DNA of 44,650 bases from a virus, in the IMG/VR virus record IMGVR_UViG_3300046713_000202, positions 1-44,650 of that record; one strand, written 5' to 3'. Below the pieces are notes generated by a model, which saw nothing but the letters and a program-made list of their open reading frames with translations, was not told the origin of the DNA and made no database searches. A program made the translations under genes and the position numbers. Positions 3,097-44,650 of the stretch are shown one piece after another. The first letter of the stretch is position 1, and each line of letters starts with the position of its first letter.

Positions 3097-3303
3097 ATGA
3101 TTACCGCTGCTGCTAAAAGAGCTTTCCCGGTTGGCTGTTCGGATGGAGAGATACTGCACGACCTCACCCGTTGGGTGGAAACCGTGGTGGCTCACTATGC
3201 GATAACCAAGAGTGACAAGCCTCGGCATCAGGAGATGACTGTAGAGATTAAAACTGCCAATGGCAGATACATTGTCGTTACCATCCAGGAGGAAGGAGAC
3301 TAG
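3097..3303 (+). CDS. Hypothetical protein (68 aa)
   Basis: A 68-residue protein with an N-terminal helical part and a C-terminal beta hairpin (VEIKTANGRYIVVTIQEEGD). No family recognised. Downstream coupling: the next gene starts TTG immediately after its TAG. Confidence 0.5.
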   Translation: MITAAAKRAFPVGCSDGEILHDLTRWVETVVAHYAITKSDKPRHQEMTVEIKTANGRYIVVTIQEEGD

Positions 3304-3558
3304 TTGCAGATCGATTTCGTCCGTGAACTGGATAACCGAAAGGAAGAGATTGGCTATCGGGCCTTGCTGGAAGCCGTGTTTGCACCAATCAACGATTCAG
3401 AAACCCATTACACGCATGGATACTGGAGCATCGGAATGGCCAGGACCAAGGGCCTGATCCCGCACTGGGTAGGCTTCTGCAAGCAGTGCCAGCATTTCTT
3501 CCTGATTTGCGGACCTAAGCAATCTCGCTGTTATTGCATTGATCATAAGGAGCATTAG
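3304..3558 (+). CDS. Small Cys/His-rich protein, TTG start (84 aa)
   Basis: An 84-residue protein read from TTG directly after the previous stop. AGGAGG and GGAG lie just upstream, making this start reasonable. The C-terminal half has CKQC, a later C, CYC and IDHKEH, a likely zinc-binding knuckle. Function unknown; second of the zinc-ribbon genes in this block. Confidence 0.55.
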   Translation: MQIDFVRELDNRKEEIGYRALLEAVFAPINDSETHYTHGYWSIGMARTKGLIPHWVGFCKQCQHFFLICGPKQSRCYCIDHKEH

Positions 3559-3735
3559 ATGAAGACTCCCAAGTGGACCACCATGACCCCGGCTCATGTA
3601 GGGCCTAACTTCAGACATACCACTCCTCCGGTGAAGTCGCCCTCAAAGGTGCAAGGCCAGACCTGGGAAGGCCCGATGCCAGCGGTTGGCAAGGCGATTC
3701 CCCCGGTGAAGCAGCGTGTTCCCAAGCGAGGTTAA
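3559..3735 (+). CDS. Small basic proline-rich protein (58 aa)
   Basis: A 58-residue basic, Pro/Lys-rich, probably unstructured protein (starts MKTPKWTTMTPAHVGPNF, ends QRVPKRG). It begins 3 nt after the previous gene's stop region, with AAGGAG upstream. No family recognised. Confidence 0.5.
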   Translation: MKTPKWTTMTPAHVGPNFRHTTPPVKSPSKVQGQTWEGPMPAVGKAIPPVKQRVPKRG

Positions 3736-3736
3736 C

Positions 3737-3937
3737 GTGCCACTCAACAAGACATCCAGTAAACAGGCCTTCAAGGACAACATCGAGGCGGAAGTATCCG
3801 CTGGAAAGCCGCAGAAACAGGCCGTCGCCATCGCTTATGCCGTCCAGCGCAAAGCCAAGAGGCAGTACTTGAGCGAGGGCGGTCCAGTTCACCGGGCCAT
3901 GGGTGTTAAGCCAGGTAAGCCAGGAGACAAGTGTTGA
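3737..3937 (+). CDS. Small phage protein, KxxSKQAFxxNI...KPQKQAVAIAY type (66 aa)
   Basis: A 66-residue basic protein. Residues 1-45 match a pattern common in small proteins near phage terminase genes: an N terminus like PLNKTSSKQAF, then AGKPQKQAVAIAYAVQRKA. Its role is not known to me. The GTG at 3737 is chosen because it gives the typical N terminus; it follows the previous TAA by one base, with GAGG upstream. Confidence 0.7.
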   Translation: MPLNKTSSKQAFKDNIEAEVSAGKPQKQAVAIAYAVQRKAKRQYLSEGGPVHRAMGVKPGKPGDKC

Positions 3938-12507: not shown

Positions 12508-13667
12508 TGGCACTACAAAACCTTGTGGGAGATGGAATCTGGTTGCCGACTCTTGAAGCAGGATTCTCTGGCACCGGCTCTTTGGCGGGTGGAGACACGG
12601 CTCTCATTGATGCTGATCAGGAAGAAGTTCAGTTCATCGGGCAGGTAACTATTGACGGCGGTGGCTCGAAGACCTTTGGCACCTCTGGCTCAAAGATTGG
12701 CTGGCTGCCTGGTCCTTCCATCACCCTTGCGGCCAACTCAACCTGCACGGTTGGCGTGAAGACAGCCGTAGACACCTCCAACGGTCCTCCAGCCAGAGCC
12801 ACTATTGGCAAGGCCGCTTTCAGCGTCTACAAAGACCTAGTGGGTGGAACAGACACAATTACCTCTACCACTTGGCGGGAAGATGCTATGGCCTCTGGAA
12901 CTCCGTTCACCGTAGCGGATGGAGACTTGATTGCCATCTGCTTTCTTCTGACCACCACTTCCGGCAGTCCTTCGATAAAAGTTCGCACTTTAACGCCTTC
13001 GACTCAATTTGGATTTCCAGCCTGTACTCTAGTTACTTCCGGCCCAACCTATACCTTACTTGGTGCTTTAGCCAATGCGATTATCATTTTCGATGATGGG
13101 GCAATAGGCTGGTTTGCAGGTACCATACCCTGTTCTGCTGTTGACACTACCAGCGCCACGATTGGCAACACCAACATCTTTGGCAACATCTTCCGGGTTC
13201 CGTTTACCTGCAAAGTAGATGCCCTCTCGGTTACTGTAACCCCTACTGCTGGAGCTGACTTCGCGATGGAACTCTACAGCACCCCACTCGGCACTCCAGC
13301 CACAGTGGAATCCATCTCTGTCGATCAGAATCTGACTACCGCTACCGCCATCAAGCAATTTATGCGCCGCTTAATCACTCCGAGAACACTGACCATCAAC
13401 ACCGACTACCTGGTCGGAGTGCGGCAGACCACTGGAACCGCTTTAACCATCAGTCAGCGGGATCAATCGAACGCCTCTTACTTTAAGCCTCTTGGCATGG
13501 GAGCTGAATGCTATGCGGCCACTTCTACCGCTGGAGCCACCTTTGCGGCCATCAACTCAGGAAAGCGCCGTTACATGGCTCATGTCCGTATCTGCGCTTT
13601 AGATGATGGAGCCGGAACAGCTGGCGGTCTCTTGGTTAATCGAGGAATGCGGGGAGGAATGGTATGA
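12507..13667 (+). CDS. Virion appendage protein, beta-rich (386 aa)
   Basis: A 386-residue Thr/Gly/Ala-rich protein made of what appear to be two beta-sandwich halves. The first covers about 1-190. The second, from about 210, contains FRVPFTCKVDALSVTVTP and TLTINTDYLVGVRQTTGTAL, the pattern of small carbohydrate-binding or jelly-roll domains in surface proteins. Codon use matches its neighbours. Probable tail-fibre component, assigned by context and composition. Confidence 0.6.
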   Translation: MALQNLVGDGIWLPTLEAGFSGTGSLAGGDTALIDADQEEVQFIGQVTIDGGGSKTFGTSGSKIGWLPGPSITLAANSTCTVGVKTAVDTSNGPPARATIGKAAFSVYKDLVGGTDTITSTTWREDAMASGTPFTVADGDLIAICFLLTTTSGSPSIKVRTLTPSTQFGFPACTLVTSGPTYTLLGALANAIIIFDDGAIGWFAGTIPCSAVDTTSATIGNTNIFGNIFRVPFTCKVDALSVTVTPTAGADFAMELYSTPLGTPATVESISVDQNLTTATAIKQFMRRLITPRTLTINTDYLVGVRQTTGTALTISQRDQSNASYFKPLGMGAECYAATSTAGATFAAINSGKRRYMAHVRICALDDGAGTAGGLLVNRGMRGGMV

Positions 13668-38384: not shown

Positions 38385-38560
38385 GGCTTTCTCCTGTCAA
38401 CGGATCGAATAGCTAGATCCCAAAGGTACTCTAACTGCCTGGGGACCGGGACAATAGCGGAGGAGCTGGCATGGGCTCCCACCACCTTATAGACCACATC
38501 TCCGAAGTCGATTACCTTCTTCATCGACTGAGGCTTCTTAACTGGCTTCTTACGGCTCAT
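38381..38560 (-). CDS. Small basic protein (59 aa)
   Basis: A 59-residue protein with an N-terminal basic stretch (MSRKKPVKKPQSMKKVIDFG) and a probable small beta fold (DVVYKVVGAHASSSAIVPVP). AAGGAG precedes the ATG, which overlaps the TGA of the upstream transcription-factor-like gene. The shared MSRKK start with the following gene may reflect local duplication. Function unknown. Confidence 0.6.
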   Translation of the reverse strand: MSRKKPVKKPQSMKKVIDFGDVVYKVVGAHASSSAIVPVPRQLEYLWDLAIRSVDRRKP

Positions 38561-38919
38561 CTTGACTCCTTATACCACTCGGTTAAATCCCTACCATGGA
38601 CTTCTTTCAAATGGTTCAGAAACCAGTTCAACGTCATGCGTCCGAAGTTATAGGTGCGAAGTAGATTCCTGGCATCCTGGGTGGTCTGAACCGTTTCACA
38701 AGTTTGACCCGCGTTCTTTAATCCAATCCATACTCTGGCTGGGGCAAATGCCAGACAACTTGTATCTCGATGTTGTCTCTCGTAGCGTGCAAGCATCTGT
38801 CTGATTCGTTCAATGGATACCCCCATCTGGCTCGAAATCTCTCTCAAGGTCAGCCCATTCTGTCTCAACTGGTAGACCTTCTTGTGCCGTTCTATGGAAA
38901 CCAGATTGTTCATCGGCAT
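38557..38919 (-). CDS. Sigma-region-4 HTH fused to RNAP alpha-CTD-like domain (120 aa)
   Basis: A 120-residue putative transcription regulator. Residues 13-48 (KKVYQLRQNGLTLREISSQM, then GVSIERIRQMLARYERQ) form a sigma70 region-4-type helix-turn-helix. Residues 61-112 (ARVWIGLKNAGQTCETVQTT, then LLRTYNFGRMTLNWFLNHLK) follow the RNA polymerase alpha C-terminal domain plan: a helix with LKNAG, a loop, LL, NFG-x-x-(S/T)-L and a terminal helix. Both parts are DNA/polymerase-interacting in their parent proteins. GGAGAGG precedes the ATG. It likely redirects or modulates host polymerase for phage promoters. The alpha-CTD reading is by eye. Confidence 0.7.
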   Translation of the reverse strand: MPMNNLVSIERHKKVYQLRQNGLTLREISSQMGVSIERIRQMLARYERQHRDTSCLAFAPARVWIGLKNAGQTCETVQTTQDARNLLRTYNFGRMTLNWFLNHLKEVHGRDLTEWYKESR

Positions 38920-43369: not shown

Positions 43370-43399
43370 ATGATAGAATTACTGTATGAACCTTGTCAA
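43370..43399 (-). promoter_or_regulatory. Leftward early promoter
   Basis: On the minus strand TTGACA (43394-43399) and TATCAT (43370-43375) are separated by 18 bp. This is a perfect -35 and a 5-of-6 match for the -10. It points into the early operon 43343-35161. Confidence 0.75.
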
Positions 43400-43429
43400 T
43401 AGGCTATTTCACCCAGTGGGATTTATATG

Positions 43430-43450
43430 TTGACACTTCATAGTGTTTAA
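43430..43450. promoter_or_regulatory. Candidate operator palindrome
   Basis: ACACT (43433-43437) and AGTGT (43442-43446) form an inverted repeat with TCAT between them, extending weakly outward. It overlaps the -35 and spacer of the rightward promoter. A repressor such as the ribbon-helix-helix protein at 42507-42731 could bind here (inference). Confidence 0.35.
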
Positions 43451-43457
43451 GTAGTAT
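43430..43457 (+). promoter_or_regulatory. Rightward promoter for the RepA-like gene
   Basis: TTGACA (43430-43435), a 16-bp spacer, and TAGTAT (43452-43457); the overlapping TATCAT at 43455-43460 is an alternative -10 with 19 bp. It faces the RepA-like gene at 43542. The TAGTAT -10 equals that of the promoter at 1763-1791. Confidence 0.6.
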
Positions 43458-43512
43458 CATCCTGTATTCCACGATGTACCTTTCCTAGTTGGGGGCGGCA
43501 GCCGACACTGTC

Positions 43513-43537
43513 GCTCCTTATTCCTTGTCGGAGGAGC
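43513..43537 (+). promoter_or_regulatory. Possible RBS-masking hairpin before the RepA-like gene
   Basis: GCTCC (43513-43517) can pair with GGAGC (43533-43537), the latter part of the GGAGGAGC ribosome-binding site of the gene starting at 43542. A CGACA-C-TGTCG palindrome lies just before it. Translation control of the initiator is plausible, but the stem is only 5 bp. Confidence 0.3.
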
Positions 43538-43541
43538 TAAA

Positions 43542-44435
43542 ATGCCCTATCTGATTGAACCCATCTTGAGTCTAAATGAAATCAATACGATTGCCGGAGT
43601 GCAAGGAGCTGGAAAGACCAGACTGTTATTCCAGATGATTAGGTGTATCTTGGATAAGCAGCCATTCTTTGGCTATCGTTGTATTTCACTCAAGGGGAAA
43701 TTTCCAATAGCTTATTGCGCCTATGACCGAAGTGCGGCCAAGACAGGCGAATTGTTAGACAAGTTTGGTTTACGCAATCGCATTGAATGGAAATCATTTC
43801 GTAATTTGAAATCTATGGAATCCCCGGAACCCTATCCACTTGAGGACCTGCCCACCAAGCATTTTCCAGATAGCCATTTGATTATAGTGGATGGTTCAGG
43901 ACTATTGATCCCAAGAGGAAAAGGAAACGATTACGGTCACACTGGCGCATTCTACCGCTATGCTGGCGGCATTGCAGAAGACAATGGCAGAACCTTTATG
44001 TTTTCTCAACACGCTCCCAAATGCATGGCCGATGCAAAGATTGTGAATGCCCGTCAAGTCAATCTTGGTTCCACAGTAACAGGCGCGATGGCTGAGGGCA
44101 TGATTAAAATTGATTTCGTTGACCATGCCAACCTGGAAGACCCAAGGCGCACGATTGATTTCATGCCCCACGATGACCGACCTCGAAAGATCCTGGTTCA
44201 ATTCAACAAAGATGGCTGGTTTGAAGAACTCGATATGGAAAGCATTACGAAGGTTAAAACTGCCTGGTTTGTGGCATTGCCAGATATGGATTTCACACGC
44301 CAAATTGCACTCGAAATCGGAGACAAATATCAGCTTGCCGAGCGAACAGTAGACAAGTACCTTAAAGAGTGTATTGATGATGCTATGCTATCTCATGTAG
44401 ATAGAGGGCCTTACAAGAAAATTAGGCCTGCTTAG
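43542..44435 (+). CDS. RepA-like AAA ATPase (putative replication initiator/helicase)
   Basis: A 297-residue ATPase. Walker A is GVQGAGKT (19-26), and Walker B is LIIVDG with D117. FMFSQHAP then supplies a sensor-like His after a polar strand, as in RepA/AAA_25-type RecA-fold helicases of plasmids and phages. The C-terminal ~50 residues (DFTRQIALEIGDKYQLAERT, then VDKYLKECIDD) look like a small winged helix for DNA binding. It is alone on this strand, has its own promoter, is visibly more AT-rich than its neighbours, and lies directly beside iteron-like repeats. Together these support replication initiation. Confidence 0.78.
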   Translation: MPYLIEPILSLNEINTIAGVQGAGKTRLLFQMIRCILDKQPFFGYRCISLKGKFPIAYCAYDRSAAKTGELLDKFGLRNRIEWKSFRNLKSMESPEPYPLEDLPTKHFPDSHLIIVDGSGLLIPRGKGNDYGHTGAFYRYAGGIAEDNGRTFMFSQHAPKCMADAKIVNARQVNLGSTVTGAMAEGMIKIDFVDHANLEDPRRTIDFMPHDDRPRKILVQFNKDGWFEELDMESITKVKTAWFVALPDMDFTRQIALEIGDKYQLAERTVDKYLKECIDDAMLSHVDRGPYKKIRPA

Positions 44436-44508
44436 ACACCTACCCCCTACTCTCAACTATTAAAACGTGCAACTAAATCAATAAGTATATATATATCATT
44501 ACGATAAC

Positions 44509-44626
44509 TTCTGCATGGCCTTCTGCATGGTTCTGCATGGTTGTAAATTGAGCGTGCAGAAGCGTGCAGGAGTGCGTGCAGAAAGTATCTATAAGATTAC
44601 ACTTGACTTAATGCCTCTTCTGCATG
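44509..44626. repeat. Iteron-like repeats, probable replication origin
   Basis: Three direct copies of TTCTGCATGG (44509-44518, 44521-44530, 44531-44540) are followed by three copies of GCGTGCAGAA or GCGTGCAGGA (44552-44561, 44562-44571, 44574-44583), whose TGCAGAA core is the reverse complement of TTCTGCA. A further TTCTGCATG lies at 44618-44626. An AT-rich run (44481-44500) precedes them. The gene-free stretch 44436-44650, together with 1-115 if circular, thus has the features of an iteron origin next to a RepA-like gene. Confidence 0.7.
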
Positions 44627-44638
44627 AAAAATAGGTAT
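44623..44638. repeat. Terminal direct repeat, right copy
   Basis: Exact copy of the 16-bp sequence at 8-23, again followed after four bases by a G-run (44643-44650). See the left copy for interpretation. Confidence 0.75.
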
Positions 44639-44650
44639 AAGAGGGGGGGG

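Follow-up and report, generated by a model that had tools for sequence, protein, structure and literature searches.

A candidate replication origin of mirror-arranged short boxes directly downstream of a RepA-like ATPase gene in a short-tailed phage

Clustered short repeats follow a RepA-like ATPase gene at the end of a phage contig, which raises the question of whether this locus is a replication origin and which protein reads its repeats. The window analyzed here is the whole 44,650-bp virus record IMGVR_UViG_3300046713_000202, from a phage of the short-tailed type. Terminase, portal, scaffold, capsid, and connector proteins are encoded on its + strand (PHROG matches). The - strand carries an early block with a PD-(D/E)XK exonuclease, a Sak4-like protein, a RusA-like resolvase, and a small HTH protein. 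Rfam and tRNA scans of the window gave no matches. Distant relatives of the portal (up to 40%) were found in MAG contigs of mixed taxa.

A preliminary description had reported TGCAGAA/TTCTGCA repeats at 44509-44626 and TTGCAG repeats at 68-111, on the two sides of the window ends. All of these coordinates were confirmed, and the two ends were compared as follows.

44616-44650, no strand: right contig end and circle junction, 86% identical over 35 bp to positions 1-35
1-36, no strand: left contig end, which repeats the right end and runs into a G-run; opening point of the circle, as indicated by the overlap and by the syntenic place in a relative, G001, which is contiguous there

In both end copies, ATGAAAAATAGGTAT is followed by four bases that differ and by a run of at least eight G. 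The G-run common to both copies probably broke the assembly of the circle. G001 (IMGVR_UViG_3300046721_000135, 44,851 bp) has an exact 127-nt terminal direct repeat and is therefore circular, and its sequence continues across the place syntenic to the window junction. Given this continuity and the imperfect 35-bp overlap, the two window ends are one locus, as had been proposed. The repeats of this locus are arranged as follows.

44471-44510, no strand: most AT-rich 40-mer of the window (82.5%), a putative unwinding element at the left edge of the array
44508-44583, no strand: core array of three inverted and then three direct TGCAGAA boxes, mirror-symmetric, with spacing 12-10-22-10-12
44617-44626, - strand: seventh box, CTTCTGCATG
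68-111, + strand: four direct TTGCAG boxes at 68, 81, 94, and 106, with spacing 13, 13, and 12

Exact copies of TGCAGAA start at 44509, 44521, 44531, and 44618 on the - strand and at 44555 and 44577 on the + strand, and a one-mismatch box, TGCAGGA, is located at 44565 on the + strand. Counted on both strands, TGCAGAA clusters more densely at 44509-44626 than any other 7-mer does anywhere in the 44.65-kb window, and six copies occur in no other 250-bp stretch. No 7-mer with six copies appeared in 1000 dinucleotide shuffles of 44436-44640 (0/1000), and no 6-mer with four copies appeared in shuffles of 40-130 (0/1000). The six inner boxes mirror one point. As the starts of their TGCAG cores are 12, 10, 22, 10, and 12 apart, all boxes are about one or two helical turns from each other. 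The array sits between convergent genes, with the repA-like gene (43542-44435) pointing in and the next gene (116-376) opposed. The mirror symmetry, the AT-rich 40-mer, and this convergent setting were absent from the preliminary description. DnaA boxes matching TTWTNCACA exactly were found nowhere in the window, and one-mismatch boxes near the junction were found only at 66 and 598.

As single-stranded DNA, the core array showed a strong fold (z -6.6), which is expected from its inverted boxes. This fold, which recalls the stem-loop origin of pRN1, and the fact that the contig happens to end at the array would both suit a 3' structural element of the repA mRNA, such as a hairpin or terminator, or a packaging site at the physical genome end. 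However, no T-run terminator was found at the array. The boxes outside the hairpin (44618 and 68-111) would also be left unexplained, the TTGCAG boxes being direct, and the place is internal in G001, whose ends are the 127-nt assembly overlap. We regard an RNA element or packaging site as very improbable.

The ATPase gene upstream of the array and its promoter region contain the following features.

43542-44435, + strand: repA-like gene, 297 aa, RecA-fold (AAA_25) ATPase and putative helicase-initiator, PF13481 match
43370-43399, - strand: promoter-like site TTGACA-18-TATCAT for the leftward early genes, from a consensus scan; same site and spacing in G001
43430-43457, + strand: divergent promoter-like site TTGACA-16-TAGTAT for the repA-like gene, from a consensus scan; conserved in G001
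43491-43518, + strand: terminator-like hairpin in the untranslated leader of repA, G+C-rich and then T-rich; G001 has a hairpin in the same place with partly different sequence

The repA-like gene runs opposite to the early block that flanks it on both sides. The divergent promoter pair is conserved in G001, with which the window shares 86% identity over 43370-43487; the number of matches in the consensus scan was not above that in shuffles. The leader hairpin may limit repA expression by attenuation.

We examined to which family the ATPase belongs. Against PF13481, the window protein gave an E value of 7.4e-6 at 26.1 bits (cut-off 27), and in a six-frame search with neighbouring matches it scored 28.4 bits, above the cut-off. 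The syntenic ATPase of G001 matched PF13481 with an E value of 1.3e-11 (44.9 bits) and the primase/helicase family PHROG 239 with 1.3e-9. RepA of a third phage, ctKR88, matched PF13481 with 7.8e-26 (91.3 bits). These profile matches place the window ATPase in the RepA/AAA_25 family (PF13481) as a predicted member. It has an ordinary P-loop (GAGKT), and K25, D117, H157, and R203 are invariant across the three phages; R203 is, as a guess, the arginine finger. The position of the catalytic Glu is occupied by Asp62 in the window, by Asp in G001, and by Glu in ctKR88. A PDB sequence search returned only a non-significant match of ctKR88 RepA to RSF1010 RepA (E 0.62). No further relatives of the ATPase beyond G001 were found in phages, plasmids, or viral or genome contigs, and a search of about 770 bacterial genomes gave one weak match. 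These negatives are weak because the alignment available for the ATPase had only two rows.

The comparison with G001 shows how the gene and the array change. The two phages share terminase (99% identity), portal (96%), Sak4 (86%), and one 83-aa early protein (100%), and their structural genes are mostly more than 90% identical. RepA is only 25% identical, the lowest value among all matched genes, and the two genomes are not alignable over the stretch that starts near 43,490, passes the junction, and ends near 245. Directly 3' of its ATPase gene, G001 carries an array of its own with seven copies of ATGACA in perfect inverted pairs. This array is tied with one other place as the densest 6-mer cluster of that genome, and the most AT-rich 40-mer of G001 (85%) lies inside it. 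For a 123-aa frame directly after the G001 array (12813-13184), the window has no counterpart, and no family was matched.

ctKR88 (MW202524.1), a distant podovirus with a circular genome of 42,585 bp, was found by tblastn with the Sak4-like protein. Its selection rested on this protein and not on repeats, so it tests the prediction independently. Its early genes, including RusA, a Sak4-like protein, and an exonuclease, are on the - strand, and a + strand gene is annotated 'regulatory protein repA', the product of which is 21% identical to the window protein. Directly 3' of repA lie six copies of AGTACCA, the densest cluster of any 7-mer in ctKR88. This array lies between convergent genes, like that of the window, and does not coincide with the most AT-rich site of ctKR88. 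Three syntenic phages thus have three different box words, TGCAGAA, ATGACA, and AGTACCA, in one place. These three genomes are the only ones in which we found the standalone form, a RepA-type ATPase gene with a 3' array. Two further AAA_25 genes, of the relative G002 and of G003, were rejected as members; they are DnaB-like with no array 3' of the gene. In the best explanation, gene and array belong together as a replicon module that can be replaced as a unit. The proposal of the preliminary description, an origin beside the RepA-like ATPase, is well supported by the synteny and by the finding that each of the three diverged repA genes is followed directly by a different array.

Boxes that are clustered, inverted, and one helical turn apart would also suit a regulatory operator or a parS-like partition or incompatibility site. 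However, the array lies between convergent genes in both the window and ctKR88, where there is no promoter to control, which argues that it is not a promoter operator, and the boxes are absent from the conserved repA promoter. For partition, an ATPase with a GAGKT P-loop and an AAA_25 match is not of the ParA type, no parB gene was seen, and the early proteins scanned gave no ParA or ParB matches. Partition is also not expected in a lytic-looking phage. A regulatory or partition site is therefore improbable, and the junction is very probably a replication origin, by whatever mechanism.

We next considered how such an origin might fire. Profiles of DNA_pol_A and DnaB_C had no match in the window or in G001, and both matched in G002, whose portal is 41% identical. 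In ctKR88, the DNA_pol_A profile had no match and no polymerase or primase is annotated. No other polymerase family was found among the early proteins scanned. These results support the host polymerase dependence suggested in the preliminary description. In the mechanism that we propose, the ATPase encoded at 43542-44435 would recognize its own short boxes directly 3' of its gene, namely the six mirror-arranged TGCAGAA boxes and the outlying boxes beside the AT-rich stretch. The ATPase would open this stretch, be loaded onto it as a single ring or a pair of rings, and then pass the fork to host primase and polymerase, as the phage has no family-A polymerase or DnaB-type helicase. We infer that the RepA-type ATPase unwinds DNA and loads itself, and initiation at the junction would be of the theta type. 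The mirror arrangement might, as a speculation, suit two opposed rings and bidirectional initiation. We consider this full statement, a RepA-type helicase-initiator with a cognate 3' box-array origin that fires with the host polymerase, to be reasonably probable.

The correlated change of repA and boxes suggests that RepA itself, and not another protein, reads the boxes. In the main alternative, the junction would still be an origin, but some other protein of the phage or the host would recognize the boxes, and the RepA-like ATPase would be only the helicase that is loaded afterwards. A precedent is RSF1010, in which the iterons are recognized by RepC and not by RepA (PMC4234260). In addition, no Pfam match for a DNA-binding domain was found at the RepA C-terminus; the structure models had pLDDT values of 32 and 46, and the predictions for the whole ATPase and for the C-terminus were too low in confidence for a fold search. 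The window also encodes a small HTH protein (38557-38919). However, the HTH gene is without a match in G001, and the neighbourhood of repA yielded no RepC-like gene. In all three phages, the gene that shares synteny with the array and varies along with it is repA, and in SaPI Rep and Cch2 one helicase performs both tasks (PMC7581432). A separate binding protein therefore appears unlikely.

Several known systems resemble the proposed RepA-type module in part. SaPI Rep and SCCmec Cch2 are helicases that recognize short repeats directly downstream of their own genes, one protein recognizing the origin via its C-terminal domain and unwinding it (PMC7581432). The window, G001, and ctKR88 likewise have a short-repeat origin candidate directly downstream of a helicase gene. 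Unlike these proteins, which have DUF927 or D5/Primase_Cterm domains, the protein here is a RecA-fold RepA/AAA_25 ATPase in a complete phage with no phage primase. As Pfam gives only AAA_25-type matches, the phage module may work like SaPI Rep-ori but is not a member of it. In PLE satellites, RepA and ori vary together, and each functions only with its cognate partner (PMC8263062). The phages here are alike in that the putative initiator and its boxes change together and are exchanged as a unit among near relatives, whereas PLE RepA is a RepA_N (DnaD-like) protein with no helicase function and with semi-palindromic iterons of about 30 bp (PMC8263062, PMC7145576).

RSF1010 RepA and GP46 of Lactococcus phage F13 are AAA_25/RepA-type RecA-fold ATPases, and their Walker A Lys, Asp, and His are conserved here (PMC8965321). 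GP46 is the helicase of a virulent phage without a known initiator or known origin (PMC8965321). In contrast to both, the catalytic Glu is Asp in the window and G001, and RSF1010 needs a separate RepC for iteron binding and RepB' as primase (PMC8965321). The origins of plasmid pRN1 and phage BIP-1 are also directly downstream of the replication gene and have a strong stem-loop, but theirs is a single stem-loop without iterons beside a Prim-pol and SF3 helicase (PMC4234260).

ctKR88 RepA also matched the helicase part of primase-helicases, and we surveyed the 3' gaps of such genes in a small sample picked by eye from match lists. The primase-helicases of EFC-1, Rhizobium phage 16-3, and Streptococcus phages (PHROG 239) have an AAA_25 helicase domain related to ctKR88 RepA, and several have a 3' array; they differ in that the helicase is fused to a primase domain and not all have the array. 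In Rhizobium phage 16-3 (DQ500118.1), 13 non-overlapping copies of CGTGACA were found in 357 bp (2206-2562), directly 3' of the primase-helicase gene p101 and ahead of a convergent gene. Judged from its sequence, this array makes a very clear origin candidate, in a phage with a long history of study. Enterococcus phage EFC-1 has six copies of AATAGCT (3641-3883) and Streptococcus phage Javan406 eight copies of GGGACA (3160-3658), in both cases immediately 3' of a RepA-type primase-helicase gene. Arrays 3' of the AAA_25 primase-helicase genes of Vegas and FP_Lugh were weaker, and that of Javan235 was borderline. No significant array was found in Javan253 and Javan59, Streptococcus phages whose primase-helicase genes have a 3' gap, or at AAA_25 genes inside operons (two WO phages, PA-SR01, Tlacuache, and ObLaDi). 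Castelnaud was not counted; its repeated 6-mer is inside coding sequence, and the next gene overlaps the primase-helicase gene. A literature search found no paper describing such arrays. Since most subscription journals were outside this search, the result is weak evidence of novelty.

Some expectations of the preliminary description did not hold. It had suggested plasmid-style iteron control, but the boxes are 7-9 bp long, spaced 9-13 bp apart, and largely inverted, and copy control is not indicated. Plasmid iterons are tandem direct repeats of about 17-22 bp, which the array with three boxes in each orientation does not form; an AT-rich region beside the repeats, as in plasmids, is present at 44471-44510. 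It had also considered such an origin unusual for a short-tailed phage. Iteron-type origins are found in lambdoid phages, the short-tailed P22 among them, which leaves the helicase-linked 3' layout as the one notable feature. GC skew had been proposed as a check for the origin, but the extremes of the detrended cumulative skew were at 22.5 kb and 36.0 kb and not at the junction. The minimum (22497) was almost exactly opposite the junction and the maximum (36007) was near the coding-strand switch, with the same shape in G001. The skew was dominated by the coding strand, and at fourfold sites it gave no support at the usual polarity.

If the proposed mechanism is true, origin recognition and helicase would be combined in one protein of the RepA lineage, where RSF1010 needs a separate RepC. 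This would provide a search rule that can be tested on any phage genome: a short word clustered immediately 3' of a RepA/AAA_25 helicase gene would mark the origin and indicate what the helicase is specific for. A pair of phages with more than 90% identity in most structural proteins and different initiator/box pairs would represent a natural specificity swap. Such a swap would be useful for studying the evolution of origin recognition, with decoy-origin defences or origin-directed nucleases, such as Odn against PLE, as possible drivers. More tentatively, and with the balance somewhat against it, a RecA-fold (SF4/RepA) ring helicase may be its own origin-recognition protein that loads itself on mirror boxes as two opposed rings, much as SV40 T antigen or SaPI Rep does, although its ATPase lineage is unrelated to theirs. 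This could define a widespread class of phage replicons, with or without a fused primase, in which the box word is rewritten fast and its 3' position stays fixed.
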